Shown: one piece after another, positions 17,900 to 59,249 of the stretch
How positions within the stretch are numbered: the stretch's first letter is position 1
Layout of the letters: the number at the start of each line of letters is the position of its first letter
Assembly: GCA_021777225.1 (NCBI GenBank)
Contig: JAJYDQ010000002.1
Coordinates: 1 to 64,000, forward strand
DNA length: 64,000 nt
Origin: Deltaproteobacteria bacterium
GTDB taxonomy: Bacteria > Desulfobacterota > Desulfomonilia > Desulfomonilales > Desulfomonilaceae
Direction: 5' to 3'
Position numbers and translations under genes: made by a program
Notes under the pieces: generated by a model
What the model saw: the letters and a program-made list of their open reading frames with translations, nothing else
Told to the model about the DNA's origin: nothing
Databases searched by the model: none

Positions 17900-17928
17900 T
17901 CATCCTCAATATCCATTAAGGAAAGAAA

Positions 17929-40816: not shown

Positions 40817-43800
40817 CTAGCGTCTTATCAAAGCCCTGGCCACAACTACATCGCCCATGTCCTCCACACGAGCCTCAATGGATTGAAAACCATTATCACG
40901 CAGGAAATTACCAGCCTCATTTTGAAATTCTAACCTTGCCCTGCCGCATTTTTCGAGTGAAACAACGTTAATATCTCTCAGGTCATAGCGTAAGCCGACA
41001 CCCAGCGCTTTTAGGCTGGCTTCTTTCAGGCTCCAAATCCGAGTCAACTGACGTGCTCGATCTTCTGATCCATTAGCCAGTTCAATTTCTGAATCGGAGA
41101 AATAATCGCTTCCCCAGCCGCTACTGCGCTTTTCAACTTTTTCTATATCTATTCCAATTCCCTGAAACGCTTTGGTTGCTGCGGCCGAACCCATTACAAG
41201 ACCGTTGGAGTGAGATACCGTCACTGCCGCAAATTCCAAATCGGAATCGTCTGAGAAACTTGCGGTGGGTTTCCCGAGATCGTCAGAAAGTATCCTTACG
41301 AGTTTGTCCTTATATTGGGCATTACCGTTGTTTGAGAGCAAACGCGTCAAGGCTCTCCTCATAATAATCCGTCCCGCAATCCATTCCTTGCGTCTTTTGG
41401 GGGTCGCATTTGCGAGATAAGACGTGCTGTCACCATCCACAAATAGTTTGGCTGATTCTGAATCCTTTTCCAGTTCGTCGGGAAGCTCATCAACAGGAGA
41501 CATTTCTTCAAAGATCCTGTTTGGAAAAGAATCCACAGTTTTTAACTCCACCATCTCAAAACCTTTCAAGAGAATCACAGGAGTCCCGTCGGCTTCGCTA
41601 AGAATTCCGTCAAACCGAATCTTAGTACGAACGTCTGTCCCAGGTTTTGAAATTATGTTGGTCGGAATTACAACTCCATGAGTAGGTGTGCCGTTTGGCT
41701 TTAGAATCACAATCTGTTCTATTCCGACGGGTAACGGCATTACCCCGTAAGATTCAAGTCCGAACGCAGCTCCAGCCTGAAAAGCTGTTTCAATTGCCGC
41801 TGGAATAATATCCGGAAACATATCTGACCTACGTTCAGTGTCTTTGAATCGGAAGCGGACTCCATTACCGTTTCCTTCAACCGACACATAATCCAGGAAT
41901 CGAAAGGCGGGACCATGGAAAAATACCGAGTAAATCTCTTGTTCCGGAACAAAAACAGCCTGTTTCCAATTTTGATTCGGCACATCAATATGAGCGGGTT
42001 CGTCTGAACCGAGAGACAGTTCGTGATGTAATCTTGGCTCCCCGAAAGGTCTGCCTTCTTTATCCAGAAGACTGCTGGATATATGGGCCTTAAATTTGAT
42101 CACAGGACCGGAAACTCGAAAAACATCAACTATAGCCTCGAACTTCTCGTTTTTGAATATCTTTAATGGCTTCATAAATCGAACATTCTGAATCACCATT
42201 TCGGACGTGGAAGGATCAAGAATTTCCGCAGCTTTTCTCATAATCTCAATGCCACCTGCTCCAGGGAACACGGCCGCTCGATCGATTCGATGATCATTAA
42301 GCAGTGGGTGAGAAGGATCGAGTTCGATCTTCATCTTTAGATGTTCACCTGGGATCAAAGATTCGATAGTTGCTTTTTGCCCCGCCAAGAAAAAGACTTT
42401 CTCTGATTGTTCACCAGGGATGACAAATGCGTCTTTTTCAAAAGGTCCAAGCTTTCCCGCCACCAGAATTTCAGGTGAGCCCGACGATCTGGCTAACTCC
42501 TGCATAAAAGCCGACACACCATTTTCCGGAGGAATGAAGTCTATCCCAGCCCCCTCAAGGCTTTGTTGAACGCTTCCTCTGGTAGCCATACCTACTTCGG
42601 CCCAAGGAGCCCAGTCAATTATAGACGCCCGGACCTCGTTGTCTCCGTCCATTCTACGCAACAGGTGCGCGAGAGAGTCATTGGCTGCTGAATAGTCAAT
42701 CTGCGCGATATTGCCAAATCTACCGGCCACGCTGCCAAAACCTATAATTCGTCTTGGTGGAAGCTGTAGCCTTTCTAAAGATGCAAGGATATTTCTTGCC
42801 CCTACGACCTTAACGTCGAAAACCAGCCTCATTTGATCCATCGTCTTGGAACTGAGAGATCGGCTGATGTCGATGCCCGCTCCATGAACAAACACATCCA
42901 CACGACCACAAAGCCGACCTATTTCATTAATAGCCCTGTCCACCGCTCCCGGATCTGTGATGTCAACCCCACGATAAATGACTTCAGACCCAAAGTTTCT
43001 GAGCTTTTTCAAGTTTATAAAGACTTCTCCCTCGTTCCTGAGTCTTGAAAGCTCCTTTTCTACTGACACAGGGGTAGGGGACTTGCCTTCGCGTTTGTGG
43101 CGCTCAACTATTTTAAGTTTTTCCTGGTTCCATTCTTCGGGCCCGTAGGTGGACAGGGACTCGGATCGAGGCGACAACGTGGTTCTTCCAAATATCACAA
43201 ACGTCACAGGAACCTGCGTGGCGATTCCTTTAATGCACTCCGCTGTGATGCCTCTGGCGCCCCCGGTCACAAGGATCACCTCACCCTGACTAACGAGGTT
43301 GGAAGTTTCTGCCATTTCCGGGGAAAGAGCAAACCTTACGCTTCGCAGTTTGAGATCGCTACTAACGCCTGTCTCAAGGGGAAAGTCTTCAATCAGGCTT
43401 CGGAAGACAATTTCAGGACCATTCTTCTCCAGGATTTCCGGGTGAATATCCAGGCATTTGCATATGGTTCGAGGGTATTCCCTAGAAAATGATTTGGCCG
43501 CTCCAGTAATGGCCCCGCTAATGTAACCCGTATCTTTGGGCGCTTCAAAGCCACAAGCGCCATCTTCCGAGACTACATTTACCAGAAACACTGGGCCATT
43601 ATCAAAAGTCGCGGCCAATGTACGAAATAGCTCAAAAGAGTTATTTAACGAGGAATCAAGGTCAAATGACGCCGCAATGTTGATCAGTCCGATTTTACTG
43701 TTGTTTCGCGACTGAATTTCACCAGGGTCAATCAGTCGTGTAACAGGGATGGAACCAAACGCTTCTCTGACACCTGTTACAAAAGAATCTTCACCTCGGA

Positions 43801-46800
43801 AAACCAACACTTCATCTATGGCAGGGATAGTTGAGATTTTTCGAGTCTGCACGGTGACCAGTTTTGCTTCGTAAACATTTATCCTGGCTGAACTCAAGTT
43901 TGTTGGAGAAGGATCAAGCGATTTTTCTGGAACTTTATCCGACGGTTTATGAGACCCCTTTTCAACCACAAATCCTATAATGTGCTTTATGGTGGGGAAA
44001 TCGGCGATTTTAAGACCTTCTATCCGAGGAATCCCAAAAGTTTCCCTGACCTCTGTGATGAATTCAGCCTGCTTAACCGTATCAATTCCGAGGTCAGCTT
44101 CCAGGTCCAGATCGGGATCCAGCATTTCTGAAGGATATCCTGTCTTGGCCGAAAGCAATTCTAATATCTTGGTTCCAACTTCAGCTTCGTCCTGGGTCCT
44201 TTGATCAATGGGAATGGAAGCTTGATTTGCCTCTACAGTGGTCTGAGGGGGCGCCGATGCGGATGTGCGTTCCATGACGAAATTGATGATATGCTCGATG
44301 GTTGGGAACTCCGCTATCTTTAGACCTTCAATTCTAGGGATGTTGAATTTCTCACGAACGTCGGAAATGAATTCAGCCTGTTTCACCGTGTCAATTCCGA
44401 GGTCAGCTTCGAGATCGAGACTCGTATCAAGCATATCTGGGGGATAACCTGTTTTTTCCGAGAGCAAGGCCAAAATCGTTTGTCTAATTTCGTCAATTGC
44501 AAGTACTGAATCTGAATTTGTCGCTACGGCCGCTAATGCCGGTTGATTCAACGCAGCCGGTTCGATCCTGACTACGGCTGGTTTCTCTGCTGCTATGCGT
44601 TCCACCATCCTCAAAGTTCTATTTTGAATTGAAACCACAGGATCTTGATAACCTGAAATTTCTTTCAGCCATTTACGGTTTGCGGTGAAATCTGTAACTC
44701 GATTTTCTTCATGACTCACTATTTTGTAGAGGGACATCACAATCTGTGATCCGAATCCAGCCGCTAATCTCAGAGCGTATTCTGCGTCACAGTGGCCCCC
44801 ATGACTGAGGTTCATGTCCTTAAATTCTGGATCAGGGACCCTGAGATTTGGGATAGGAGGCAATCTACGCTTTTGGAGACATCTCAACGCAACGACATCT
44901 TCAATCCCTACTCCCATAGTATGACCGGTAAAACCTTTCGTATTGGCTATGGGAATAATCCCGGCGCTTTCTCCGAAAGTTGAACGCAGAGCCTTGATCT
45001 CGGCGGACGAACTCCCGCCCCGTTTCGGAGAATACGTTTCATGTGACATGAAGAACATTTTCCTGGCCAGTTCGTGACGGGATATACCGGATTGTTTCTC
45101 CCATCTTGAGATCATCTTCTCCATGACGGTCACAATATGATCAACATCAAGGCGTGTTCCATGGAAACCACTGTTTGCAACTGCTCCCGCTTCGATAGAG
45201 GCGATTGGTTCCATACCCCTCTGTTTTACGAGATCTTCATTTTCGAGGACTATAGCCGCAGCAGCAGAACCCAATATCAGTCCATGTCTACGATCATCAA
45301 ATGGCAGGGCAGCTTCATCTACGTTGGCGTTAGTAGTGGCCGCTCCCATTGCCAGGAACCCGGAACCTATCCATGGGAACAGTTGCCTTCCAGCTACGTC
45401 GTCCGCTGCAACGACCAATACTCTTTTAGCCTGACCTGTTCTTATCCAGTCTTTCGCAAGAAGAATCGCCTGCGTAGTTCCGGCGCAAGCAGCGTCAACA
45501 TGGGTGTTTGGTCCCTGCGCCTTGATCAGTTGCGCCAATTGGCTGTGTCCCATACTCATGACTCTTAAAAGAAAGTTCCTGTTAAAAGTATAGAGTTCAC
45601 CGGAGTTTGCTCCACTGAGTCCGTCGAATTCTTCTGTGAACCAGCTGGTTATGGATTCTTTTACGCGATCGTCTTCAATTCTTTGAACAATTCCAGTGTA
45701 AAAATCAATAAGCCGCTTCTTCGCTCCAGCTCCATATCTGGCACGCGCCTCCTTGGTCACTTCATCCACCAATGACGCCATACCGGGGAAAGCTGATGCG
45801 AAAATTACTCCCGTTTCTTCTCTTAGATCTGGTGATAAGGTCCAAGCTCCAGGTAGTTCACCTCCCGTCGTAGTTGTCTTGACTTGCTGAATTAGTGGTA
45901 CACCGGCGTCTTTAAGGGCTTCCAAGCCTGCTGCTACAGCCAGCCTGGTTGTTACATCCATGGTGTCTACAAGGCGTCTTTCAAGCCCGAACTCCTCTAC
46001 AACCGATTCGTGGTCTTCAAAAAAACCGGCGAGTTTGATGACTCCAGACATGTTATCAACGATCTGAAGTTCCACTTCGCCGGCAGGGCCTTTAAAAAGC
46101 CGTTCGACATTTTTATCGAGCATCTCACGACGGGTTGTTTCAGGAACCTTCTTTATGAAATTCTTTCCCAGAATAAGGTCATCAAGATTTGCCTTGTCAA
46201 AAGCAAACCGAATATCCGTAGGTAATCCCGTCGACATTCCTGAAATCACAACGGGCTTTAGATCCATGCCCTCAGTTTTCAGAAGGTTCGACGTCCTTTC
46301 AAGCGGTAAGATATTTTCTACAAAACTGGTGAAACTTGACTTGATCAGACTCTTTATCGGCGCTCCCTGAAGTTCCAGAAAGCGCTTGAATTCCATTTTC
46401 GAAGCGATTTCGCGCAACTCGGTATCAAGAAGCCCGTCTAGAGGCGATGGAATCTCCTTTGATTTGTTGGCCTCCTTTTTCGAAAGACGGTCGTCGGTCT
46501 CACCAACTGATGAAACGATGGCAAGAGTAGGCCTTTTACGAATCGGGTGAACATTCTGAGGCTGTGTCGGAGACTCTGCAGCCGGAATATCCAACTCAAA
46601 ACCTTCTACGATCAAGGCGGCAATGGATTCGAACAACTGCATGATCCCTCCCTTTTTGGGATGGTTTGTAGGTAACGCGAGCGAATCCTTGGGTAATGTG
46701 TCGAGTGTTAGATTTGTCATAACTCGTTTGGGACCGCATTCTACGAACACTCGAATTCCATCCCCATGTAGCCGCCTGAGTGTTTTTACCCACTCCACCG

Positions 46801-49800
46801 GGGCAGCGAACTGTTTTCCCAAAAGGTCCCTGATTCTGGCAGGAGCGCCGGGTCCCACCGGATAGTAATCGCCTGTGACATTTGAAATGATGGCTATGGC
46901 AGGTGATGAAACTTTTAACTTTTCGAGTGTTTTCATAAAGGGCTCACGCGCAGGGGCGACAACGCCCGAATGGAATGCCGCTGATACTGGTATTAGCAGG
47001 CCTTCCAAGCCTCTCTCCCTGAAAAGTTCCCCAGCTTTTTTCACGGCTGCAGTCTCACCTGAAATCACGGTCTGTTTTGGCGAATTTTTGTTCGCCGCTA
47101 CCACATATCCGTCAACTTGAGCCAAAACCTCTTCGACCAGTCTAGCGTCCGTGGGGATGCTCATCATTAAACCTGGATCAGCTATGCTAACCCTTGCCAT
47201 TTCTCGGCCGCGAACAGCCACCGCTTCCAACGCGTCGCGGAACGAAAAAACGCCGGAAGCCACGCAGGCGGCATACTCCCCGAGTGAATGCCCCGCACAA
47301 GCGACCGCTCGCATTCCCATTTTTTCGAGCAAACGAAAAATGGCCGTATCAGCCGTCAAGATCATAGGCTGCAAAATCTGAGTGTCTTTTATAATGTCAC
47401 TTGCGCCTGATTCGGGAATTTGAGCCGGATCAGGGAAGACTAGGGAACTGATCTCCTTTTGACCGAGTTCTTTCATTATTTCATCAGCTTCCCTAAATGT
47501 GTCCGCCACTATCGGAAATCTGTCGCACAGATCCCTTAACATGTAAGGATACTGCGACCCTTGACCAGGGAAAAGAAATGCGGCGCCGGGTGAATTACGT
47601 GATGGCTTACCCTCTGAAAAATAGACCCCTCTGGCGCCTAAAAAGCCCCTTTTGGCCGGGTCTTGAAGGGCCTCGAGTATTGAAGACAATTTCTTTGAGG
47701 TAGCTTCGATATCCGACGCGGCAAAGCCAAACCTCAAATTGAAACTTTGACATTCATTTCTATGCGTCTCCGCCTGGTTCGCATATGTTGACGGATTGAT
47801 CCCCTCGAGGATAGTGCGAATTTTTGCAATTAATTCGTCTGGATTGTTTCCACCGATAGCCCATATTGTCCCATCCAGGCTCAACTTGTCGGGCTTGGGC
47901 CAATCGGGTTTGACAAATTTAACTACCGGAAGTTGTAAGGGTCTATTTGCCGGTACCAAACGCAAAGCCGGATTATATTCTTGGAGGACAATATGAAAGT
48001 TTGTGCCGCCAAAACCGAACGCGCTAACGCCGGCGCGTCTGAATGACCTGTCCGAAGTTTTCCATTCCCGAGCTTCAGTTATTAAAGAAAGAGGTGAAGA
48101 GTCCCAGTCTATGCATGGGTTGGGATTAGTTACGTTTATGGTTGGTGGCAGTGATTGATGATATAGGCTAAGAATTGCCTTTATCATTCCTGCCGAACCG
48201 GCTGCCGCTTTTAAGTGCCCAAGCTGTGATTTCACGGATCCAATGCCTACTGAGCCCGAGGGAGATCCGGCATTCCTAAAGAATTTGTCAAGAATCATTA
48301 GTTCGGTTTTGTCGCCAACGGCAGTAGATGTTCCATGAGCCTCAATGAGTCCGATTGTGGCCGGGTCCACACCTGAATTTTCCAGACAAGCCCGGATGGC
48401 TCGTTCCTGACCCGCTGCGTTCGGCGCTGTTATGCCCTTGCCTCGTCCATCAGAAGACGACCCCACGTCGAGAATTAGAGCGTAAATTCTATCTCCACTC
48501 GACAAAGCGTCGGAAAGCCGTTTCATAACCATGACACCGGCGCCTTCACCCATGACAAAGCCGTTAGCCGAAACGTCAAAGGGCCTGCTTCCATCCGGTG
48601 AAAGAGCGCCGACTTTGCAGAATTTTACGAATATTGATGGTTGCATCGAGGTGTCAACACCACCCGCTATGGCGCAATCCATTGTTCTCGATCGTAGACC
48701 TGAGACAGCGTTCATTATTGCGGCCATAGATGATGCGCACGCAGCGTCCACAGTGAAATTGGGGCCTTCCAGGTTAAATACATTGGCAATTCTGCCGGAA
48801 ATCACATTGGCCAACTCGCCGGGCAATGAATCCTCAGTTATTTCCGGAAGCCCGGCAAGGAAACGGCCGCGAAAATCTTCAATAATTTTCTCGCTAATCG
48901 ATGAATCAACATTTACCGAAGCCATCGCTTCACGCATCCGCAGCAGAGTTCGAGGTAATCCTACCCGTTCTGCATACAAATCAGTGATTTCACCACCCAT
49001 GCTATTTCCGATAACAGTCCCTACCCGCTGCCCCTTGAGCGCTTCAGGCGACAGCCCTGCATCCGTCAATGCGTCAGCCACGCAAGCTATGGCCATTTTC
49101 TGAGTCCGGTCCATTTTTTGCGCGACAGTCGGAGGAATCCGATATTTGAGAGGATCAAAGTTGAAATCACAAATGAAGCCGCCTATCTTTGAATAGGTTT
49201 TGTCCGGAACCCGTGGATCCGAATCGTAGTAAAGATCTACCGACCCCCACCTTTCATCAGGTGTTGGTATTATGCCACTCCTTTTCTCAACTATCTGACG
49301 CCAGAACTTTTCCGGCGAATCGGATCCCGGAAGCCGCAAGCCGATTCCAATTACTGCTATTGGCTCATTGTCGGATTTCAGTTCCACTTTTTGTGTTGGT
49401 TCGAAATCCTCGCCGGGTTCATTAGAATTCATGGCGTTGACTCCTGTTTGAATGGCTTCAATTTGTTTAAAAGCCTTCAATTGAGTTGTTGCTGTGGTAT
49501 GGGCAGGCTCAAGCAATTTGAGCCTATTAGCTGTTTCTGTATAAATTTGTTGTCCTTTGTAAATGAGATTCTCATGGAGCCTAGCAATGGTAGTGGGTTC
49601 GTCTAACAAGCACGCGACTTGTCCCATGAGATATAGGCCTCTTTCGATTTGCTCTTGAGGGCTCAACTCACAAAATTGAGGGCAATCGGATTGTGAAGTC
49701 GCAGGATCAATAGCGCATCCCTTTGAAGCCAGACGAAGACCGCCGAGGTTATCCTGTTCATAAAATTCCTTGCGGTCCCGCAACGGCATCCCGGCCCGGA

Positions 49801-51541
49801 CACGTTCAAGCTCTCGCTCAACAAGTTTAGTGGCCATCTGTGAACACGCTACTCTTGTCATAGTGTTTACAGTCCGGCCTACTACTACAGTATCACGCGA
49901 CTCGAGAGTCAGTCTCCGGTAGGAATCGGTAATAGCCTTAGCTTTGACGGCTTCCTCGGTCGTAAGGTAAGCGGTTCCGAGCTGAAGTCCAACCTTGAGG
50001 CCCTTTTCAGTAAGATGATCTGTCATGCCCGCGATAAATGCTGATCCTCGCCGTGAGCCAATTCCACCAGCAAACAAAACACTCACCGCACTCAAATCCA
50101 GGCCATTTTTATGAGCTTCCTCCAATTGATTCAGGTTAGCGTTCCACAGATTGAGGCTGCTAAGGTTTCCGATGTGTCCACCGGACTCGCCTCCTTCAAA
50201 GACGAATCGTTTGAGACCTGCTTTCAGGGCCTCCGATAAGATTCCAGGTGAAGGGCAATGCAGATAGCAACAAGTGCCAATACCTTCAATTGTTGAGGCT
50301 AGTTCTGGACCACCAGCAGCCAGGATCGCAAATTTGGGGGGATTGGAGCGCATTATTTCTAGATGCGCTTCATAACGGCTACGATTGACCTCGAGCCCTA
50401 TCAGGCCTACTCCAAATCTTGATCCATTTTTTTCACGTGCCTGTTCAAGGGTCTCCTGAGCTATCGGTCCGGGCATATTCCCCAACGCCAGGAATGGCAA
50501 TCCGCCTCCGTCAGCGACTGCTTTCAGAAAGTCCGCGTTGTCACTTACATGAGCCATTGGACCTTGCACAACCGGAAATTTTACACCGTGCTCAAGGCTG
50601 ATCGCGGATCCTTCTTCAAAAGGCCATTGTGAAGGGCCATTTTTCATAGCGTCCACAAACTTTTTAATTACATCGGAAACAGAATGGCTTTCCTTGAACA
50701 GGCCCTTATTGATTACTAAATCCTCAGAAAATGGGAAAATGGAATCATCAATGTCAGGTGTAGCAGTGGGGTGGCCGATTGTCTTCGAAAGAATTTCTCT
50801 ATATTCGTCAAAATCTTCCGTTGCCATGGACTCTTCAAATTTTTTAAGTTCTCGAATTTTTTTTGTTCCTATGCGCGAATAAGCTCGGAAGACGCGACCT
50901 GAAACTTCATTTAATGTTGTGGATGAAGGCAAATTGAGATTGGTGAAAAACTTCTTGAGTTCGGGATCAATCGCTGACTCATCAGTTAATAACAGGTGGT
51001 AATCCAGGACAATTCCGGTCGCTCCTGCCCTGATTGCACCCGCCGCGGTGCATGGTCCGACACCCCCCTGATGGAAGACGGGTAACGTAGAGGCTTCGAG
51101 GACTTGTTGCAGCAGTACAAACCCATGCGTTGCGCTGACCCATCCACCAGCTTCGGTTCCTTTTGCGATCAGCCCTTGGGCGCAGAGCCGTTCAGCCTGC
51201 CTCACATGTTCAACGGAACCGACCTCGATCAGGACAGGAAATGGTAATTTCGACAAGGCGCCGTCATCAATAGATTTTAGAAGATCGCTATCCTCCATTG
51301 GAACAATAGCAAGTTTTATTCCTGACACCTTTCCTGAATGTATCAGGTCGTTGACATGGGCCCGTATCCCACGCGAGATAGAGGTGTCTGAGGCAAATAG
51401 GGCTTGACCAGCAGTCACGTGATCAATTACACCGACCCCTCCCAGTTCTGTAACCTTGTTTATTAACCGGCAGTCCTGATTAAAGTAGGGATTAATGAAA
51501 ATTATCGGTATTGTCATATTAAGTTGGCTAATGATATTCAT
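40817..51541 (-). CDS. Giant PfaA/PfaD-like iterative polyketide/fatty acid synthase
   Basis: One 3574-residue chain. Domains in order: nitronate monooxygenase/PfaD-like barrel 1 (about 1-260, HQGGVGPCTAAGAIRAGA near 160), barrel 2 (about 300-690, VVQGPMAHVS near 320 and FEGGESGGHIG near 450), KS1 (725-1170, DAACASS with Cys near 934, EAHGT, KSQLGHLKAAAG), AT (about 1315-1640, FLFPGQGSQ and GHSLGEYAA), KS2 (about 1755-2265, DAACAGTT near 2018, SHET, NTKGFTGHT), two ACPs (GIDTVKQAEF near 2384 and 2486), KR (VTGGARGITAE near 2760, YSAAND near 2950), a double-hotdog DH (HPLLNDHR near 3083) and a phosphopantetheinyl transferase (GIDIEKVE near 3465, WSLKEASLKALG near 3508). It has its own ER-like, loading and activation functions, and no thioesterase. 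The start overlaps the TetR stop (ATGA). Product unknown; a long-chain, possibly polyunsaturated or hydroxylated lipid is plausible. Confidence 0.88.
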   Translation of the reverse strand: MNIISQLNMTIPIIFINPYFNQDCRLINKVTELGGVGVIDHVTAGQALFASDTSISRGIRAHVNDLIHSGKVSGIKLAIVPMEDSDLLKSIDDGALSKLPFPVLIEVGSVEHVRQAERLCAQGLIAKGTEAGGWVSATHGFVLLQQVLEASTLPVFHQGGVGPCTAAGAIRAGATGIVLDYHLLLTDESAIDPELKKFFTNLNLPSSTTLNEVSGRVFRAYSRIGTKKIRELKKFEESMATEDFDEYREILSKTIGHPTATPDIDDSIFPFSEDLVINKGLFKESHSVSDVIKKFVDAMKNGPSQWPFEEGSAISLEHGVKFPVVQGPMAHVSDNADFLKAVADGGGLPFLALGNMPGPIAQETLEQAREKNGSRFGVGLIGLEVNRSRYEAHLEIMRSNPPKFAILAAGGPELASTIEGIGTCCYLHCPSPGILSEALKAGLKRFVFEGGESGGHIGNLSSLNLWNANLNQLEEAHKNGLDLSAVSVLFAGGIGSRRGSAFIAGMTDHLTEKGLKVGLQLGTAYLTTEEAVKAKAITDSYRRLTLESRDTVVVGRTVNTMTRVACSQMATKLVERELERVRAGMPLRDRKEFYEQDNLGGLRLASKGCAIDPATSQSDCPQFCELSPQEQIERGLYLMGQVACLLDEPTTIARLHENLIYKGQQIYTETANRLKLLEPAHTTATTQLKAFKQIEAIQTGVNAMNSNEPGEDFEPTQKVELKSDNEPIAVIGIGLRLPGSDSPEKFWRQIVEKRSGIIPTPDERWGSVDLYYDSDPRVPDKTYSKIGGFICDFNFDPLKYRIPPTVAQKMDRTQKMAIACVADALTDAGLSPEALKGQRVGTVIGNSMGGEITDLYAERVGLPRTLLRMREAMASVNVDSSISEKIIEDFRGRFLAGLPEITEDSLPGELANVISGRIANVFNLEGPNFTVDAACASSMAAIMNAVSGLRSRTMDCAIAGGVDTSMQPSIFVKFCKVGALSPDGSRPFDVSANGFVMGEGAGVMVMKRLSDALSSGDRIYALILDVGSSSDGRGKGITAPNAAGQERAIRACLENSGVDPATIGLIEAHGTSTAVGDKTELMILDKFFRNAGSPSGSVGIGSVKSQLGHLKAAAGSAGMIKAILSLYHQSLPPTINVTNPNPCIDWDSSPLSLITEAREWKTSDRSFRRAGVSAFGFGGTNFHIVLQEYNPALRLVPANRPLQLPVVKFVKPDWPKPDKLSLDGTIWAIGGNNPDELIAKIRTILEGINPSTYANQAETHRNECQSFNLRFGFAASDIEATSKKLSSILEALQDPAKRGFLGARGVYFSEGKPSRNSPGAAFLFPGQGSQYPYMLRDLCDRFPIVADTFREADEIMKELGQKEISSLVFPDPAQIPESGASDIIKDTQILQPMILTADTAIFRLLEKMGMRAVACAGHSLGEYAACVASGVFSFRDALEAVAVRGREMARVSIADPGLMMSIPTDARLVEEVLAQVDGYVVAANKNSPKQTVISGETAAVKKAGELFRERGLEGLLIPVSAAFHSGVVAPAREPFMKTLEKLKVSSPAIAIISNVTGDYYPVGPGAPARIRDLLGKQFAAPVEWVKTLRRLHGDGIRVFVECGPKRVMTNLTLDTLPKDSLALPTNHPKKGGIMQLFESIAALIVEGFELDIPAAESPTQPQNVHPIRKRPTLAIVSSVGETDDRLSKKEANKSKEIPSPLDGLLDTELREIASKMEFKRFLELQGAPIKSLIKSSFTSFVENILPLERTSNLLKTEGMDLKPVVISGMSTGLPTDIRFAFDKANLDDLILGKNFIKKVPETTRREMLDKNVERLFKGPAGEVELQIVDNMSGVIKLAGFFEDHESVVEEFGLERRLVDTMDVTTRLAVAAGLEALKDAGVPLIQQVKTTTTGGELPGAWTLSPDLREETGVIFASAFPGMASLVDEVTKEARARYGAGAKKRLIDFYTGIVQRIEDDRVKESITSWFTEEFDGLSGANSGELYTFNRNFLLRVMSMGHSQLAQLIKAQGPNTHVDAACAGTTQAILLAKDWIRTGQAKRVLVVAADDVAGRQLFPWIGSGFLAMGAATTNANVDEAALPFDDRRHGLILGSAAAAIVLENEDLVKQRGMEPIASIEAGAVANSGFHGTRLDVDHIVTVMEKMISRWEKQSGISRHELARKMFFMSHETYSPKRGGSSSAEIKALRSTFGESAGIIPIANTKGFTGHTMGVGIEDVVALRCLQKRRLPPIPNLRVPDPEFKDMNLSHGGHCDAEYALRLAAGFGSQIVMSLYKIVSHEENRVTDFTANRKWLKEISGYQDPVVSIQNRTLRMVERIAAEKPAVVRIEPAALNQPALAAVATNSDSVLAIDEIRQTILALLSEKTGYPPDMLDTSLDLEADLGIDTVKQAEFISDVREKFNIPRIEGLKIAEFPTIEHIINFVMERTSASAPPQTTVEANQASIPIDQRTQDEAEVGTKILELLSAKTGYPSEMLDPDLDLEADLGIDTVKQAEFITEVRETFGIPRIEGLKIADFPTIKHIIGFVVEKGSHKPSDKVPEKSLDPSPTNLSSARINVYEAKLVTVQTRKISTIPAIDEVLVFRGEDSFVTGVREAFGSIPVTRLIDPGEIQSRNNSKIGLINIAASFDLDSSLNNSFELFRTLAATFDNGPVFLVNVVSEDGACGFEAPKDTGYISGAITGAAKSFSREYPRTICKCLDIHPEILEKNGPEIVFRSLIEDFPLETGVSSDLKLRSVRFALSPEMAETSNLVSQGEVILVTGGARGITAECIKGIATQVPVTFVIFGRTTLSPRSESLSTYGPEEWNQEKLKIVERHKREGKSPTPVSVEKELSRLRNEGEVFINLKKLRNFGSEVIYRGVDITDPGAVDRAINEIGRLCGRVDVFVHGAGIDISRSLSSKTMDQMRLVFDVKVVGARNILASLERLQLPPRRIIGFGSVAGRFGNIAQIDYSAANDSLAHLLRRMDGDNEVRASIIDWAPWAEVGMATRGSVQQSLEGAGIDFIPPENGVSAFMQELARSSGSPEILVAGKLGPFEKDAFVIPGEQSEKVFFLAGQKATIESLIPGEHLKMKIELDPSHPLLNDHRIDRAAVFPGAGGIEIMRKAAEILDPSTSEMVIQNVRFMKPLKIFKNEKFEAIVDVFRVSGPVIKFKAHISSSLLDKEGRPFGEPRLHHELSLGSDEPAHIDVPNQNWKQAVFVPEQEIYSVFFHGPAFRFLDYVSVEGNGNGVRFRFKDTERRSDMFPDIIPAAIETAFQAGAAFGLESYGVMPLPVGIEQIVILKPNGTPTHGVVIPTNIISKPGTDVRTKIRFDGILSEADGTPVILLKGFEMVELKTVDSFPNRIFEEMSPVDELPDELEKDSESAKLFVDGDSTSYLANATPKRRKEWIAGRIIMRRALTRLLSNNGNAQYKDKLVRILSDDLGKPTASFSDDSDLEFAAVTVSHSNGLVMGSAAATKAFQGIGIDIEKVEKRSSGWGSDYFSDSEIELANGSEDRARQLTRIWSLKEASLKALGVGLRYDLRDINVVSLEKCGRARLEFQNEAGNFLRDNGFQSIEARVEDMGDVVVARALIRR

Positions 51542-52497
51542 GAAATCACCTTCAAGGGGTTAGTGTTCGAAGCCTGATCAGGTGGGATGGCAAAACCATA
51601 AAAAAGAACCTCTCGAACAGTATCTATTTCATCTAACAGGGACCTTTCAGCGCCCTCGCTAAGCCACTTTTGAATTACACCGTTAAGGAACCCTATAATT
51701 CCGTAAAAAACGGTAAAATAGTTCATCTGTTTTAGACAACCTGATCGGGAAGCCTTCCAACACCGACGCTTTAGACCTGGCAAAGCCAGAATCAGTTCCT
51801 GTATGAACTTCTCAGAAAATTCTCGACCGAAATCTTTGTGTTCCTGAATTATAACTTTGAAAAACGAAGAGTTTTGTTCAAAGAAACTGAGATACATTTT
51901 TATTACACTTTCAATAATAGTGAGTATATCGTCCTGGACACTGAGATCCTTGCGGGCCAATTCAACGAATTCTGACATGGTGTCTTCTTTGAGCGCCGTA
52001 AAAATGCTCTCTTTTGTCTTGAAGTAGCGGTAGACGGTCCCTTTTGCTATATCTGCCCTTTCCGCAATGGAATCGATCGTGGAAGTGTGAAAGCCTTTGT
52101 CGGAAAATTCAGTAAGAGCGGCTCGCAGAATTCTGCGTCTGACGTCCTTTTGCTTTTTCCTTTTTGATGTTTCAACTTCTGATGATCGTTTGAGGCTTTG
52201 AAACAAAAGGTCTTCAAGGATAAGTTCTCTGGGAACACCATTTACCTCAGCGATATCTATTGCGCTTCTGTAGAATTCTCGCATTAGCGTATCGGAATAA
52301 ATGGGAGAGGCGATAAGCGCTCTTGCTGCAAGATCGACCATGTTGAGAATTGTATCGGATCGAGTCGCTTCGTCGTAAGGAAGCGCGTGAAGCTGGGTTT
52401 CAAGTATTTTAATAATTTCTGGAATAGCGAAGGCATCCCGGTGGGCTTTGGTATTATTGACAATACTGTTGACAGCGTGTTCCATAGAAATATCCAT
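51538..52497 (-). CDS. TetR-family regulator with long N-terminal extension
   Basis: ATG at 52497 is preceded by AGGAG at 6 bases. The 319-residue protein has its TetR helix-turn-helix at about residues 119-165 (ILRAALTEFSDKGFHTSTI, IAKGTVYRYFKTKESIFTALK), not at the N-terminus as usual. The first 118 residues are an unrecognised alpha-helical part (ARALIASPIYSDTLMREFYR). The rest is the ligand-binding domain. The stop overlaps the synthase start by ATGA, so regulator and synthase share a message, and it probably controls the synthase operon in response to a fatty acid or lipid ligand. Confidence 0.85.
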   Translation of the reverse strand: MDISMEHAVNSIVNNTKAHRDAFAIPEIIKILETQLHALPYDEATRSDTILNMVDLAARALIASPIYSDTLMREFYRSAIDIAEVNGVPRELILEDLLFQSLKRSSEVETSKRKKQKDVRRRILRAALTEFSDKGFHTSTIDSIAERADIAKGTVYRYFKTKESIFTALKEDTMSEFVELARKDLSVQDDILTIIESVIKMYLSFFEQNSSFFKVIIQEHKDFGREFSEKFIQELILALPGLKRRCWKASRSGCLKQMNYFTVFYGIIGFLNGVIQKWLSEGAERSLLDEIDTVREVLFYGFAIPPDQASNTNPLKVIS

Positions 52498-52520
52498 GAT
52501 CAACTCCTACTGATGATATC

Positions 52521-52655: not shown

Positions 52656-53846
52656 CTATTCTATTGGAGAATTGTTGGAAGAAGGCAATGTGAAACAAAA
52701 GCGGCAACCACGACCAAGCCCTTCTGATTCTACCCAGATCCGCCCGTTTTCAGATTCAAGAATTCGTTTGAGCATGGCCAGTCCAATTCCAGTTCCTTCG
52801 GATTTCTCGTCAAGTTTGACAAACAACTTGAAGATTTTGTCCTGGTCCTGAGTGTCTATACCTATACCGTTATCCTTAACGAAGAACGTGATTTCATCGC
52901 CGCCGCGCTCTGCCCCGATCGTAATTTTAGGCTGGGTCTGCCCACCCATGTATTTAACAGCGTTCTCTATCAGGTTTTGCAGAATGGTAAGCAATTTATT
53001 TCTGCACGTATGGATGGAGGGTAAATTTTCCTGGATCTCAATCTCGACATTGCTATTAGCTATCTTCCCGGCCAATATTTCTAGAGCTTCCTGGGCAATT
53101 TCCTCAAAAACCAATTCCTGACGTTCATCTTCAATTGTTGCGATTCTGGAAAGTTTCAACAAATCTGTGATCAGTACTTCCATTCTATCGGCTGAATGCA
53201 GGATTGTGGCCATGGTTTCAGTCAATCTCTGGAGATTGCCGTTTTGGGCGTCCTTTTCGATCCACTTTAGCAGACCCTTTATAGTAATTATCGGACCCCG
53301 AAGGTCGTGAGAGATCGCGTAACTGAATACCTCGAGGTCCGAGTTTTTGGCTTTCAACTGGGCTATTAATTTTTCTCTTTCGATTTCACCGATTTTTTGA
53401 TCAGTCACGTCTTGAATCATGGACATTTTCGAAATTGATCCATCGGGGTAATAGATGGGAGTATTGATAACATAATAGTAACGATTGTCTTTGGGACTCC
53501 TGATCTCCCAACGAACTGTCTCTCCTTGCAATACCCTGTCATTTACGCACCAATCACAAATGTCATCTAGTCCATGTAGAGCCTTGAAGCACTTCTTTCC
53601 AACGGGATTGTACCCTGTTCGCTCGATCAGCTTGTCATTCATGTATTCGATTTCATAATTAGCCGAACATACATAGATGAAACCATCAAAAGCCCGAAAA
53701 ATCGCTTCCAGTTTTGCGGAATTTTCAAAACAGACTCTAGCTTGACCACGAAGTTCTTTTTGAAGCGCGCGCAGATGGTCCAGTTCCTGGCGCATAAATG
53801 CGATCTGCCAGTTTAAACTTTCAAGACTTGTGTCAACAAAACTCAT
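52656..53846 (-). CDS. PAS-domain sensor histidine kinase, soluble
   Basis: ATG at 53846 follows GGAG at 6 bases; an upstream TTG is less likely. The 396-residue protein has an N-terminal coiled helix, a PAS/PAC segment with several Cys (YVCSANYEIEYMNDKLIERTG, DDICDWCVND), the HisKA box with YAISHDLRGP (His near 179) and the HATPase N, G1 and G2 boxes (NLIENAVKYM, VKDNGIGID, GTGIGLAMLK). No membrane segment is seen. No response regulator is adjacent. The Cys-containing PAS domain could sense redox or metal. Confidence 0.86.
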   Translation of the reverse strand: MSFVDTSLESLNWQIAFMRQELDHLRALQKELRGQARVCFENSAKLEAIFRAFDGFIYVCSANYEIEYMNDKLIERTGYNPVGKKCFKALHGLDDICDWCVNDRVLQGETVRWEIRSPKDNRYYYVINTPIYYPDGSISKMSMIQDVTDQKIGEIEREKLIAQLKAKNSDLEVFSYAISHDLRGPIITIKGLLKWIEKDAQNGNLQRLTETMATILHSADRMEVLITDLLKLSRIATIEDERQELVFEEIAQEALEILAGKIANSNVEIEIQENLPSIHTCRNKLLTILQNLIENAVKYMGGQTQPKITIGAERGGDEITFFVKDNGIGIDTQDQDKIFKLFVKLDEKSEGTGIGLAMLKRILESENGRIWVESEGLGRGCRFCFTLPSSNNSPIE

Positions 53847-53929
53847 TAGACGCTCCAACGTCCGAAATCGGTCCTGAAATGAGAGACAGGAATTAAATTA
53901 ACAGAGCAAATTTCTTGGTGAATAGTTAC

Positions 53930-55102
53930 CTAATCTAACCTTCTTTTAAATAGCGCGGAAGCCCATGCGATGTAAACTATCGCCATGATAAATATTGGCG
54001 CCAGCTGTGGCCACAATATTTCCCATCCAGAGCCTTTCAAGAATACCCCTCTAACAATAGCGATAAAATACCGGACAGGATTCAGATATGTAATATATTG
54101 AATTATCACCGGCATATTTTGTATAGGGAATGCGTATCCTGACAACAGAATCGACGGCTGAAGAAACATAAATGACGTGAGAACCGCTTGTTGCTGAGTT
54201 GAACAAAATGCTGAAATAGTCATTCCAATGCCAGATGCAGTAATAAGAAACAGCAAGAACGCGCCGAAAAAGAACGAGAGTGATCCTCTAAAAGGGATGT
54301 CGTACATAACCAGGGCAAGAGGTGTAATAGTCAAAAGTGTGACTATCTCAATCGTAAAACAAGGTATTGTTTTGCCGAGTATCAGCTCTAGGCGGGAAAT
54401 TGGCGCTACCATGAGCTGCTCAATAGTCCCGATTTCCCTCTCTCTGACGATGACGGCGGACGTCAGTATTATAGCAAGAGTCAGGAGCAGGAGAACCACA
54501 ACGCCGGGCACGAAGAAATCCTTGGAATTTAGATTTGGGTTAAACCATGCACGCGAAGCGACTGTCACCTGAGGGATGATGAGCCTTGGGTTTGTCGAAT
54601 CATACAACAGTCCTTGCATGCTGTTGATTCGCGAGATTAGTATGTCATCAGAAAAACGTTGCAATATGGATTGAGCGTATCCGGAAACAGTCCCCGCCGT
54701 AACGGTGTCGACCCCGTCTATAAGTACCCCTACTTCTGCTTTCCGCCCACCGTTTACGCGTCGCTCAAAATCCGGAGGAATCAAAATTGCTAGTGAAGCG
54801 ATATTTCGCTCAAGAAGTTTGTCTACTTCTTCATAACCGTCAAGGGAACTAATAATTTTGAAATATCCAGACTTCGAGAACCCTTCCACTATGTCACGGC
54901 TCATCCGGCTATGATCTAAATCCACTACAACCGTAGAGACACTATTTACATCCAATCGACTAGCCGACCCAAAAATTATCAGTTGGATCAGCGGAGCCAA
55001 CAGCAACATCATAAGGTTTTGTCGATTTCGAACGATTTGTATAAATTCTTTTCGAATCAGCCATCTTATTCGCTGAAGGCTTTCCAGGATTTTCCTTTTC
55101 AT
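53930..55102 (-). CDS. ABC-2 type permease (YbhR-like)
   Basis: The 390-residue protein has one N-terminal membrane segment (LLLAPLIQLIIFGSASRL), a large periplasmic loop of about 150 residues and five C-terminal membrane segments, with the REREIGTIEQLMVAPISR signature of ABC-2 exporters. Its start overlaps the previous permease stop by ATGA, so the two are coupled. It is the last gene of the exporter operon. Confidence 0.88.
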   Translation of the reverse strand: MKRKILESLQRIRWLIRKEFIQIVRNRQNLMMLLLAPLIQLIIFGSASRLDVNSVSTVVVDLDHSRMSRDIVEGFSKSGYFKIISSLDGYEEVDKLLERNIASLAILIPPDFERRVNGGRKAEVGVLIDGVDTVTAGTVSGYAQSILQRFSDDILISRINSMQGLLYDSTNPRLIIPQVTVASRAWFNPNLNSKDFFVPGVVVLLLLTLAIILTSAVIVREREIGTIEQLMVAPISRLELILGKTIPCFTIEIVTLLTITPLALVMYDIPFRGSLSFFFGAFLLFLITASGIGMTISAFCSTQQQAVLTSFMFLQPSILLSGYAFPIQNMPVIIQYITYLNPVRYFIAIVRGVFLKGSGWEILWPQLAPIFIMAIVYIAWASALFKRRLD

Positions 55103-56235
55103 AATTGGATTTTCCCGAGCTTGTGAGCAACCAAGGTCGTCACCAAGACGGCAAAGACAACAAGCGCCAAAGTGGGAACAAGGATGGCCCCCCAGCCGAC
55201 TCCCTTAAGGTATATAGCCCTGAGTATCGTCACATAGTGCCGGGCTGGAATAATGTATGTGAAATACTGTAAGAGCACAGGCATGTTGGCGATAGGAAAG
55301 ACGAATCCGGATAAAAGAAAAGTAGGAAGAACCGTTCCTAGTAGCGCTAACTGGGTGGCAAAAAATTGATTTGAAGCTACAACCGAAACCAAAAAACCAA
55401 TAGACATCGCTCCGATCAGAAAAACACTGGAAACCACAAACATTATGAGCAGGTTTCCTCGAAACGGTACCCTAAAAACGTACTCTCCCATAAGGTAAAC
55501 CATTAATAGATCTATATAGCCAAGCGTAAAATAGGGAATCAATTTCCCGATTACAAGCTCATTAGGCTTTAGAGGAGTTGACATCAACTGTTCCATCGTT
55601 CCCGTTTCACGTTCCCTGACAATAGTAAGGGAAGTAAGGAGAGCTGCGATAATCATCATAATGACAGGGATCAATCCTGGAATAATGTTGTTTCGGCTGA
55701 TTAGCTCGGGGTTGTATACAATTCGGATTCTTGGATCAATCGGAGGTACGACGCGACTCTGTACAGCCTGTCTTGTCAGGGCTTTCATCTTCAAATCACT
55801 CTCAAATGTCGTAGCGATAGTTTCCAGATAAACTATTGCCAGATTTGCCCTGGTAGAATCGGAGCCGTCGACAATAGCCTGAATTTGAGTTCGATCTCCT
55901 TTTTTTATCTTTTCGCTGAAATCAAAAGGTATGATTAGCCCGACGCTAATGACGTTGCTATCCAGGTCCCCTATTATCTGACCATAAGCTTCCGTTTGAA
56001 CCACGAGGCGAAAATAGCCTGAGCTGGTCATTCGATTGATGAAGTCTCGTGATTCGTGACTGTTGCTTTGATCCCAGATAGCTATGGGAATGTTGTCAAC
56101 ATCCAGAGACAACGCAAATCCGAAAAGAATCATTAGCATAACTGGAATTCCCAGAGCGAGGTACAAAGATCTGCTATCCCGAATTATCTGTCTTGTTTCC
56201 TTTTTGGCTACCGCCAGGGTTCTTACAATGTTCAT
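55099..56235 (-). CDS. ABC-2 type permease (YbhS-like)
   Basis: This 378-residue protein has the same layout as the next gene (N-terminal segment, large external loop, five C-terminal segments) and the RERETGTMEQLMSTPLK signature. The two permeases likely form the heterodimeric membrane part of one exporter. It lies 58 bases after the upstream ATPase gene. Confidence 0.88.
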   Translation of the reverse strand: MNIVRTLAVAKKETRQIIRDSRSLYLALGIPVMLMILFGFALSLDVDNIPIAIWDQSNSHESRDFINRMTSSGYFRLVVQTEAYGQIIGDLDSNVISVGLIIPFDFSEKIKKGDRTQIQAIVDGSDSTRANLAIVYLETIATTFESDLKMKALTRQAVQSRVVPPIDPRIRIVYNPELISRNNIIPGLIPVIMMIIAALLTSLTIVRERETGTMEQLMSTPLKPNELVIGKLIPYFTLGYIDLLMVYLMGEYVFRVPFRGNLLIMFVVSSVFLIGAMSIGFLVSVVASNQFFATQLALLGTVLPTFLLSGFVFPIANMPVLLQYFTYIIPARHYVTILRAIYLKGVGWGAILVPTLALVVFAVLVTTLVAHKLGKIQL

Positions 56236-56293
56236 TTTCGTTGGATGTCCTGATAAGGAATTCGTCTAGAATTGTAACTATGTTTCGGACTGG

Positions 56294-57241
56294 TCATTCA
56301 GTTTGTGTGATTTTTTTTTGAGGAGAGGTAAGTGTCACAAAGACGTCCTCCAGAGTGGGGGTAACAATTTCAAGACGTTCAACAGTAATCCCATTGTAAA
56401 CAAGTACATTTCGAATTCTGACCTTGGCTGCTTTTGGGTCTCGAGTGACCAGATGGACTGAACTTCCAAATACGGCCGCTTCTGAAAAAATTGGTTCCTT
56501 TTGAAGAAGTTCCGCTGCTTTCATCAATTGATCACATTCCAGATCAATGACAGATTCAGGCATCCATTTTTTTTTCAACTCTGATGGGGTTCCAAGAGCG
56601 ACAATTTTACCTGCGCTCATCAATGCAAGTTTGTTACAATATTCAGCTTCTTCCATATAATGGGTTGTAACAAAAATGGTAACACCTTGAGACGCCAGGT
56701 CATTGATAAGTTCCCAGAAATTTCTTCGAGACAGAGGATCAACTCCTGATGTAGGCTCATCCAGGAAAAGAACGGGGGGTTCATGGAGAATTGCGCAACC
56801 CAGAGCAAGTCGTTGCTTCCATCCTAGTGGGAGAGAACCGGTTATGGTATCGGTTTTATCGGTTAGACCAGCCATCTCGAGAACCCACAGGCTGCGTGCT
56901 GCTTTTGTCTCATCGCCCAAGCCATATACGCCTCCGAAGAAATCGAGGTTCTCCGAGACCGTGAGGTCCTCATACAGCGAAAACTTCTGGGACATGTAGC
57001 CAATATGTTTCTTTATCTCTTCACTTTCACTGTTAACATCATATCCGGTAACCATTCCTTTTCCCGAGGAGGGGGTGAGTAGTCCACACAGAATCTTGAT
57101 CGTAGTGGTCTTCCCTGCTCCATTGGGGCCTAGAAAACCAAATATTTCACCTTGCGGGACTTCAAACGTCACATGATCGACCGCTACGAAGCTGCCAAAG
57201 ATTCGGGTCAAGTCCTGTGCGAAAACGGCTACGCGATCCAT
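56294..57241 (-). CDS. ABC transporter ATPase (second half of YbhF-like pair)
   Basis: The 315-residue protein has Walker A FLGPNGAGKTTT, Q-loop MSQKFSLYEDL, signature region ITGSLPLGWKQR (LSGG replaced by SLPLG), Walker B VLFLDEPTSGVD and H-loop TTHYMEEAEYC. The degenerate signature suggests that one ATP site of the pair is weak. Its start has AGGA in front. With the other ATPase it corresponds to the two halves of E. coli YbhF. Confidence 0.88.
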   Translation of the reverse strand: MDRVAVFAQDLTRIFGSFVAVDHVTFEVPQGEIFGFLGPNGAGKTTTIKILCGLLTPSSGKGMVTGYDVNSESEEIKKHIGYMSQKFSLYEDLTVSENLDFFGGVYGLGDETKAARSLWVLEMAGLTDKTDTITGSLPLGWKQRLALGCAILHEPPVLFLDEPTSGVDPLSRRNFWELINDLASQGVTIFVTTHYMEEAEYCNKLALMSAGKIVALGTPSELKKKWMPESVIDLECDQLMKAAELLQKEPIFSEAAVFGSSVHLVTRDPKAAKVRIRNVLVYNGITVERLEIVTPTLEDVFVTLTSPQKKITQTE

Positions 57242-57269
57242 ATCTTATCCTATGCGAAATTGACTAATG

Positions 57270-58232
57270 TCACGATCGAGTTTCCCTATTCGAAAGGACC
57301 GACAGGAAGACGTCTTCCATTGATGGAGCGACTCTCCTGAATGACTTAACTTGAATGCCGGGGCTGTCTAGAATCCTTTTCACCTGAGACTCATCAGATT
57401 CTGAATGAAGACGAACGTGAAGGCAATCCCCAAAAATATTTACGTCAAGTACTCCTTCGTGCTTTTTTAAGGCGTTCCTGGCGATCCTAACATCGGACGG
57501 AACAATCTCTAAAATAATTCCTTTTACCATAGATTTTAGGTCCTTAGGGGTGCCAAGCTCGATAATTGACCCATCTCGCATAAAGGCCGTCCGGGTTGTA
57601 CGTTCAGCCTCATCCAGATAGGCCGTTGAAACGAGCATAGTGATTCCTTCCATCAGTAGTTCATAGAGAATTTTCCAGAAGTCTCTTCGCGAAACTGGGT
57701 CCACCCCGTTAGTAGGCTCATCGAGTAAAAGTACCTGAGGGCTGTGAATCAATGCGCACGTCAATCCAAGCTTTTGTTTCATTCCACCGGACAACGCTCC
57801 GGCGAGTCTTTTAGAAAAAGGGCCTAAACGACTGAACGAGAACAATTGATCTATTCTCTGCGCCCTAATTTTTTTAGGCACGCTGAATAGATCAGCGTAA
57901 AAATTCAGATTCTCCATTACAGTGAGATCCTGATAAAGTCCAAATCTTTGAGGCATATACGCTAAGTGATTTTTGACTTGATCAGGATTTTCGCGAACAG
58001 AAATTCCATCGATGTAGGCGTTTCCGGATGATGGAGAAAGAATTCCTGCAAGCATCCGCATAGTGGTTGTCTTGCCGGCCCCATCCGGCCCGATAAGGCC
58101 GAACAATTCCCCCTTTTCCAGCTTCAAATTCAGGTTGTTAACAGCTTTTAAAGGGCCGAAATGTTTACACAGGCCTTCGGTCAAAATTACTGGAGCAGGA
58201 GTGTCTTTAATTTCGGTTTTGTGCAAAACCAA
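57270..58232 (-). CDS. ABC transporter ATPase (first half of YbhF-like pair)
   Basis: The 320-residue protein has LIGPDGAGKTTTMR, MPQRFGLYQDL, the canonical signature LSGGMKQKLGL, VLLLDEPTNGVD and STAYLDEAERT, where the H-loop His is replaced by Ala-Tyr. The start is TTG, 7 bases after the stop of the upstream gene. The pair thus splits signature and H-loop defects over two proteins. Confidence 0.86.
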   Translation of the reverse strand: MVLHKTEIKDTPAPVILTEGLCKHFGPLKAVNNLNLKLEKGELFGLIGPDGAGKTTTMRMLAGILSPSSGNAYIDGISVRENPDQVKNHLAYMPQRFGLYQDLTVMENLNFYADLFSVPKKIRAQRIDQLFSFSRLGPFSKRLAGALSGGMKQKLGLTCALIHSPQVLLLDEPTNGVDPVSRRDFWKILYELLMEGITMLVSTAYLDEAERTTRTAFMRDGSIIELGTPKDLKSMVKGIILEIVPSDVRIARNALKKHEGVLDVNIFGDCLHVRLHSESDESQVKRILDSPGIQVKSFRRVAPSMEDVFLSVLSNRETRS

Positions 58233-58238
58233 TCCATT

Positions 58239-59249
58239 CTACTGTTTGCTACTGTTGTCGTTCACCAGAATATATCCTTCCGCAGGCATTCCAATTTTAA
58301 GTTCCTGTTCAGGGTTTGGTATTGTTATTTTTACACGATAAACCTGCTTGACCCGTTCCTCTCGCGTCTGAACATTCTTGGGCGTGAATTCAGCTCTCGA
58401 AGAAATAAATGTGACTATTCCTCGATAGATTTTACCTGGGAAAGAATCAGTGGTAATATTAACCTTTTGTCCCAGTTTGACCAAGCCCAGGTCCTTTTCT
58501 CCTATGTAACCTTTTAACCAGACCTTATCAATTTCGGCTATAGTGGCTACAGTTGCTCCCGGAAGAACGACCTCTCCCAATTCGTTAGCCTTGACAAGCA
58601 CTGCGCCATCTGTAGGTGATAGTAATGTTGAGTGATCAATATCAAGTTCAATTTTTTTCAGGTCCCATTTAGCTTTTTCCAAACGGCTTCGCGCTGCTCT
58701 GATTTCCTGCTCTCGTGGGCCTTTTTCAAGTTCAGCCAACCGTTCGGACAAATTGTTGAATTCTTCTTCAGCTACCTTGAAGGCAGTTTGTTTTGTATCA
58801 AACATGGAAGCTGATATCGCTCCCTGATCCAATAGCGGATAATAGCGTTCATACTCATCTCTGGCGTTTTTCAACCGGCTCTCGGCGGCCTTGGCCTGGG
58901 CCCTGGCGCTTTCTATTACCTCTTTTCTAGTGCCCTCTTCCAATTCATCCAGTGAAGCTGTTAAAGCTGAAATGTCACCTTTCACAGACCCTCGAATCGC
59001 CTCGAGGGTATCGGTGTCCAGCGTAGATATTATCTGATCCTTTTTGATGCGGTCACCTTCTTCGATGGGCAAGGTCTTAATCTGACCTGCGAGTCTGAAT
59101 GATAGATCAACTTCGGTAGCTTCGATATTGCCGCTTACGAAAACGGTTCCCGCCGCCGCGCCGAGATTTTTCATGTAATGAATTAGATATGTGGCGATCG
59201 CTCCAATTACACAGAGGACTACAACTGGAATCCCAATCCGTTTTATCAT
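58239..59249 (-). CDS. HlyD/YbhG-type membrane fusion protein
   Basis: A single N-terminal membrane segment (GIPVVVLCVIGAIATYLI) is followed by a lipoyl-like half (SGNIEATEVDLSFRLAGQI), a long coiled-coil hairpin rich in Glu, Arg and Ala (about residues 85-200) and a beta-barrel region (KGYIGEKDLGLVKLGQKV). At 336 residues it fits YbhG/HlyD adaptors. It should bridge the ABC permeases to an outer membrane channel, which is not encoded here. Confidence 0.88.
   Translation of the reverse strand: MIKRIGIPVVVLCVIGAIATYLIHYMKNLGAAAGTVFVSGNIEATEVDLSFRLAGQIKTLPIEEGDRIKKDQIISTLDTDTLEAIRGSVKGDISALTASLDELEEGTRKEVIESARAQAKAAESRLKNARDEYERYYPLLDQGAISASMFDTKQTAFKVAEEEFNNLSERLAELEKGPREQEIRAARSRLEKAKWDLKKIELDIDHSTLLSPTDGAVLVKANELGEVVLPGATVATIAEIDKVWLKGYIGEKDLGLVKLGQKVNITTDSFPGKIYRGIVTFISSRAEFTPKNVQTREERVKQVYRVKITIPNPEQELKIGMPAEGYILVNDNSSKQ

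Follow-up and report, generated by a model that had tools for sequence, protein, structure and literature searches.

In a stretch of 64,000 nucleotides from a bacterium of the family Desulfomonilaceae (contig JAJYDQ010000002.1, positions 1 to 64,000; from here on, the window), a single gene on the minus strand (40817..51541) encodes a giant synthase. Judging by its domains, active-site motifs and relatives, the protein is probably an iterative type I fatty-acyl (secondary-lipid) synthase. It would be a Type R relative, from a clade with the order ketosynthase (KS1), acyltransferase (AT), second ketosynthase (KS2), acyl carrier proteins (ACPs), ketoreductase (KR) and dehydratase (DH), with a FabK-type enoyl reductase (ER) and a phosphopantetheinyl transferase (PPTase) fused into the same chain. 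In both ACPs, Thr takes the place of Ser at the attachment site. An earlier note on this DNA, made from the sequence alone, had reported the two ACPs and the activating PPTase, which are indeed present, and had missed this substitution, the oddest feature of the protein.

The synthase chain and its active sites

The open reading frame has 3574 codons, an ATG start and zero internal stops. Pfam finds nitronate monooxygenase (NMO) twice, ketoacyl-synt N and C, Acyl_transf_1, KR, PP-binding twice, PKS_DH_N/PS-DH, ACPS and 4PPT_N, and the order from N to C terminus is NMO/FabK barrel, NMO/FabK barrel, KS1, AT, KS2, ACP, ACP, KR, DH, PPTase. The earlier note had given this domain list and order in one chain, and had described a giant single-chain synthase with a built-in PPTase; the Pfam and NCBIfam scans and the intact minus-strand frame agree. 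The observation is confirmed as real. Full-length orthologues of the same family, with 61-96% identity, keep the domain order, which rules out a one-off or chance fusion as well as an assembly artefact. Among 119 related genomes, most of those in the family have such an orthologue, and the rest of the phylum has next to none; the cultured strain Desulfomonile tiedjei DSM 6799 (G010) carries one, and other relatives include metagenome-assembled genomes (MAGs) of Desulfomonilaceae. Nine aligned orthologues, the window's own included, share one plan, two of them being cut by the end of a contig or stretch. The features of the synthase are the following:

40817..51541, minus: single-chain synthase, 3574 aa, ATG at 51541, supported by orthologues
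50756..51541, minus: barrel 1 (residues 1-262), NMO/FabK-type TIM barrel; Pfam NMO 6e-13; W134 replaces the catalytic His
49592..50614, minus: barrel 2 (residues ~310-650), predicted FabK-type enoyl reductase with ESGGHIG (H456); TIGR03151 9.6e-20
47957..49369, minus: KS1 (residues 725-1195), C935, EAHGTST, GHLKAAAG; Pfam and motifs
46622..47584, minus: AT (residues 1320-1640), GHSLGEY, AFHS (malonyl-type); Pfam and sequence
44687..46270, minus: KS2 (residues 1758-2285), C2019/H2167/K2202/H2207, N-terminal half diverged; Pfam and alignments
44267..44494, minus: ACP1, Thr2385 (codon 44387-44389, ACG) at the phosphopantetheine site; motif alignment
43958..44185, minus: ACP2, Thr2488 (codon 44078-44080, ACG) at the phosphopantetheine site; motif alignment
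42467..43309, minus: KR (residues 2745-3025), S/Y/N motif; Pfam and sequence
41507..42364, minus: DH of the double-hotdog polyketide synthase (PKS) type (residues 3060-3345), DHRIDRAAVFPG; Pfam and sequence
40832..41434, minus: Sfp-type PPTase (residues 3370-3570), GIDIE and WSLKEASLKALG intact; Pfam and motifs

The N-terminal barrels had been described as PfaD-like, and this description does not stand. Both barrels match FabK (TIGR03151) weakly, far under the equivalog cut-off, and neither matches PfaD (TIGR02814), a model that gives 606-660 bits to the true PfaDs of relatives; the missing match rules out a PfaD identity. An AlphaFold2 model of the barrels has eight alternating beta/alpha units per half (mean pLDDT 67), and a Foldseek search with the N-terminal model ranks FabK structures first and PfaD far lower, with the beta subunit of fungal fatty acid synthase (FAS) among the fold matches. 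Barrel 2 has the fold and the His motif (ESGGHIG) of FabK-type enzymes, with a TIGR03151 score well under the cut-off, and the catalytic GGH is kept in barrel 2 of every homologue where the motif was located. We predict from sequence and model that barrel 2 is a flavin mononucleotide (FMN)-dependent FabK-type enoyl-ACP reductase. In barrel 1 of all these homologues, bacterial and archaeal, the catalytic His is replaced by W, R, K, V, F or Y (in the orthologues, always GW where GGH is expected). Barrel 1 is therefore most likely a structural pseudo-enzyme, and the idea of two working ER barrels has to be given up. Two Pfa-like synthases with Ser ACPs from the same phylum, L053 (G067) and L054 (G042), also have two fused N-terminal barrels of which the first has lost the His. 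A tree of barrel 2 sets the KS2-type barrels, those of Desulfomonilaceae and of Asgard archaea, apart from the Ser-type ones with moderate support (90/89); the barrels may go back to one ancient fusion with later losses, or to transfer.

Scanned by itself, KS2 matches Pfam ketoacyl-synt (1.3e-18). Over its C-terminal half it aligns with FabF-type enzymes, the catalytic Cys is C2019 in DAACAGTT, and the Cys-His-Lys-His set is complete in 82 of 82 homologues. Because of this full set of active-site residues, KS2 is, by its sequence, a full ketosynthase; a chain-length factor (CLF) is ruled out by the intact residues here and in relatives. The earlier note, which had seen the Cys and no obvious CLF, was right on this point. 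The PPTase has both motifs of the Sfp type (GxDIE and WxxKEAxxK).

Threonine at the carrier attachment site

The motif LEADLGIDTVKQAEFI is present in both ACPs and in every orthologue, and it aligns with the GxDS of solved carriers. We counted the residue at the site in the best 80 of at least 560 loci found by scanning the genome collection with a KS2 profile, plus relatives: in KS2-containing synthases from many phyla, Thr occupies 214 of the 216 sites having Thr or Ser, and in PfaA-type synthases Ser occupies 26 of 26, these counts being of domains and not of independent events, as some loci overlap or are close kin. The two Ser ACPs of KS2 synthases both belong to one archaeal locus (L095). 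In a set cleared of the nearest duplicates, the regex-matched motifs encode Thr as ACA (22), ACC (59), ACG (70) and ACT (15). All four codons are in use and Ser is one base away, so Thr is kept by selection.

Of the KS2 loci whose flanks are complete, most have a PPTase either fused or no more than about 10 kb away. The host's own AcpP carries Ser, and its genome has three PPTases: AcpS, the one fused into the synthase, and a third that lies next to a second synthase. Since the ACPs of the synthase present Thr instead of Ser, its PPTase may well be dedicated to them and would then modify Thr. We consider it quite unlikely that the Thr ACPs are degenerate and that the chains are carried elsewhere, for instance by AcpP. 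In favour of that explanation, Thr is not a known acceptor, and the S36T variant of E. coli ACP is used as a non-modified control; but Thr is near-invariant in a well conserved ACP motif across many phyla and in all four codons, the ACPs are retained as 1-5 tandem copies, and the PPTase is usually fused or linked.

Relatives in bacteria and archaea

The KS2-profile loci come from Acidobacteria, Actinobacteria, Chloroflexi, Myxococcota, Elusimicrobia, Spirochaetes, Thermoplasmatota and Heimdall archaea, among others. The majority are without barrels; members of the clade have 1-5 tandem ACPs, and in most bacterial relatives the PPTase is discrete. One relative of 3724 aa (L065 4628-15802, G221) has three Thr ACPs, a discrete PPTase and, inserted between KS1 and AT, a further KS.

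The Type R secondary-lipid synthases were described by Shulse and Allen 2011 (PMC3098273) from Roseiflexus, Koribacter, Solibacter and Elusimicrobium, with the second KS annotated as a CLF. They have KS, AT, second KS, tandem ACPs and KR in one protein, with a PPTase, and the synthase has the same KS-MAT-second KS/CLF-ACP-KR arrangement in a single protein. The starting point of the earlier note, that PUFA (polyunsaturated fatty acid)-type synthases are normally spread over PfaA-E, thus compares the synthase with the wrong subgroup, as its KS-AT-KS-ACPn-KR core fits the single-protein Type R enzymes. Roseiflexus, Korobacteraceae, Solibacter and Elusimicrobia all yield relatives with the KS2 profile, and those whose ACP is covered have Thr there; in a quick tree the KS of the synthase groups with Roseiflexus, Acidobacteria and Elusimicrobia members. 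The synthase differs from Type R in its two additional N-terminal FabK-type barrels, in a PPTase within the chain instead of a separate downstream gene, in having 2 ACPs instead of 3-6 in tandem, and in a second KS with an active Cys instead of a CLF. With the Cys present in KS2 of 82/82 relatives, this last difference questions the CLF label of Type R and not the kinship; the second KS labelled CLF in PMC3098273 looks like a complete KS.

The PfaA-E synthases (Types A and B) share with the synthase the KS-AT-ACPn-KR order, an ER of the NMO superfamily and a dedicated PPTase. They differ in being five proteins, with KS-CLF and a FabA-type dehydratase/isomerase in PfaC, a PfaD-family ER and Ser ACPs (LGIDSIK). 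A single-chain fusion of the Pfa synthase, with polyunsaturated or polyene-derived lipids as its product, is another reading of the protein in the window; it has in its favour the tandem ACPs, the PfaA model TIGR02813 as the top NCBIfam model, and an identity of KS1-AT of ~36-40% to Pfa-like enzymes from its own phylum. We regard it as very unlikely, since the TIGR02813 score is under the cut-off (908.4 vs 1010.1 bits), the domain scans find only PKS_DH/PS-DH and no FabA-like dehydratase/isomerase pair, the barrels are not PfaD and the ACPs have Thr. The earlier note had proposed a comparison of KS phylogeny with Pfa-like synthases; made here as a quick KS1-AT-KS2 tree, it sets the KS2 rows, the synthase among them, apart from seven Pfa-like rows with 100% SH-aLRT, where Ser-type L007 falls among the KS2 rows on a very long branch (an unreliable placement) and L145 is labelled Ser merely because its KS2 sits in another frame. 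The link to PUFA synthesis drawn in the note is left without support. L007 (11840-19489, G000:C28, cut by the contig end) is a second giant synthase of the same genome, with the order barrel, barrel, KS, AT, ACP (Ser-type LAIRS), KR; a separate PPTase and a B12-radical-SAM gene adjoin it, and similar frames with ~30% identity occur family-wide.

Bacterial and fungal type I FAS also have a FabK/NMO-type ER and a PPTase inside the megasynthase. Their domain order is another one, as is the AT/MPT arrangement.

The full plan with barrels and PPTase recurs in the Asgard loci L082, L087, L091 and L095, and partially in L117. These four have barrel-barrel-KS-AT-KS2-ACP-KR-DH-PPTase with a dead first barrel, and Thr ACPs except in L095, which has one Thr and two Ser. 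They differ from the synthase in their archaeal hosts and in a KS clade separate from Desulfomonilaceae, and L095 also in lying beside carboxylase subunits and PlsY-like genes. L095 is a complete chromosome, of Candidatus Heimdallarchaeum endolithica. Its synthase locus (1952-18592) includes a PlsY-like gene, biotin ligase, carboxyltransferase, the full synthase with barrels, biotin carboxyl carrier protein (BCCP) and biotin carboxylase. In a Heimdall MAG (L083 3008-17474), biotin carboxylase, BCCP, carboxyltransferase and FabI adjoin a synthase with PPTase and without barrels. Barrels fused in L095 and FabI adjoining in L083 suggest that the ER is supplied either fused or in trans. The carboxylase, FabI and PlsY-like neighbours would place malonyl-CoA supply and acyl transfer nearby, which supports fatty-acyl synthesis. 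We present the L095 cluster as a candidate archaeal fatty-acid synthesis locus; in the open-access literature we found no description of an Asgard FAS.

Proposed function, gene neighbourhood and significance

In the proposed cycle, the AT would load malonyl units onto both ACPs, and KS1 and/or KS2 would condense; because both active sites are complete, a division of labour is possible in which one of them primes or handles a different chain length. KR and DH would process the beta carbon and barrel 2 (FMN, FabK type) would reduce the enoyl, with barrel 1 as a catalytically dead pseudo-dimer partner and the C-terminal PPTase serving its own Thr ACPs. With a core for elongation and full reduction and no FabA-like dehydratase/isomerase, saturated and not polyunsaturated chains are expected, and the likely product is a long acyl chain that is reduced fully or for the most part. 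Activity, iteration, chain saturation and Thr-linked phosphopantetheine are all things we infer from sequence.

In support of this proposal, the chain holds the core elongation-reduction set (KS, AT, ACP, KR, DH, ER) and the PPTase, and to that extent it is self-contained, as the earlier note had called it. Several points weigh against the proposal. Domain scans of the chain found no thioesterase or other release domain and no obvious starter or loading domain, and in this respect the note's description falls. The DH has Glu where the second catalytic Asp is usual. In the majority of the clade's bacterial members, such an ER is missing from the DNA examined, some 10 kb to either side, and full reduction is therefore not a trait of the clade. 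The Thr carriers might be poor or inactive. The S36T variant appears in PMC10607373 as a plasmid-table entry only. Ser is given as the conserved carrier attachment residue in PMC13291983 and PMC9769936, and the open-access literature searched mentions no attachment residue other than Ser, with no description of Thr carriers and no known product found for any clade member. Finally, the host has a FAS II cluster (fabD, fabG, acpP, fabF).

Given these FAS II genes, the synthase is likely accessory. A role as the host's principal fatty-acid synthase in place of FAS II would agree with its conservation family-wide and with the canonical FabZ not being found in the family, but we rate this as highly improbable: fabD, fabG, acpP (Ser) and fabF are present, the sister family f2 has neither FabZ nor such a synthase, and a 529-aa SDR-hotdog fusion may act as dehydratase. 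The searches for FabZ, KS and PPTase thus weaken that reading. The 529-aa protein (L164 8510-10099, G000:C56) is a short-chain dehydrogenase/reductase (SDR) with a partial FabA-like hotdog match, and may be the FAS II dehydratase; canonical FabZ is apparently missing from the class.

Upstream of the synthase, the window contains:

51538..52503, minus: TetR regulator that overlaps the synthase by 4 bp (ATGA); FadR and FasR are its closest NCBIfam models, below cut-off
52656..53858, minus: PAS-HisKA-HATPase histidine kinase (domain scan), adjoining in some relatives
53930-55102 and 55099-56235, minus: two ABC-2 permeases, putative export set 53930..59249
56294-57241 and 57270-58232, minus: two ABC ATPases, same putative set
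58239-59249, minus: HlyD-type adaptor, same putative set

The TetR gene precedes the synthase with the identical 4-bp overlap in all orthologous loci examined. FadR and FasR are fatty-acid regulators, and the synthase may be regulated by this FadR-like TetR. The HlyD-ABC-ABC-permease-permease set is linked in several, not all, orthologous loci; a functional tie to the synthase is conceivable, and an exporter operon as its defining trait is ruled out, the linkage not being general. Downstream, at 38011-40740, lies a membrane fusion of cyclic-nucleotide-type, sigma54-activator and ferredoxin parts, syntenic in only some relatives.

Enediyne PKSs such as CalE8 and DynE8 have the plan KS-AT-ACP-KR-DH-PPTase and are self-activating and iterative, as is proposed for the synthase; they differ in that they are not known to have an ER or a KS2, and in having a Ser ACP. 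An enediyne-PKS-like iterative enzyme making an exported specialised metabolite would fit the C-terminal self-activating PPTase and the exporter genes upstream in several genomes. The presence of an ER, exporter genes that are not adjacent in all orthologues, few tailoring genes nearby, and archaeal relatives adjoining acyl-CoA carboxylase and PlsY-like genes make this unlikely, and we prefer the fatty-acyl synthase.

More tentatively, it is possible that Thr-linked 4'-phosphopantetheine with dedicated co-encoded PPTases forms an orthogonal carrier system in many bacterial phyla and in Asgard archaea and Thermoplasmatota, and that the Heimdall enzyme is a complete archaeal fatty-acid synthase. 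Across fatty acid, polyketide and nonribosomal peptide synthesis, carrier proteins are taken to be activated on Ser without exception. A broad clade that keeps Thr at this site would mean a second kind of acceptor chemistry, served by transferases of its own, or a novel mode of tethering; the former, if true, would be useful as an orthogonal pair for labelling and engineering. The cultured D. tiedjei DSM 6799 opens the way to lipid analysis, and the Asgard relatives would make archaeal fatty-acid synthesis, which is central to the lipid divide and to eukaryote origins, directly testable.
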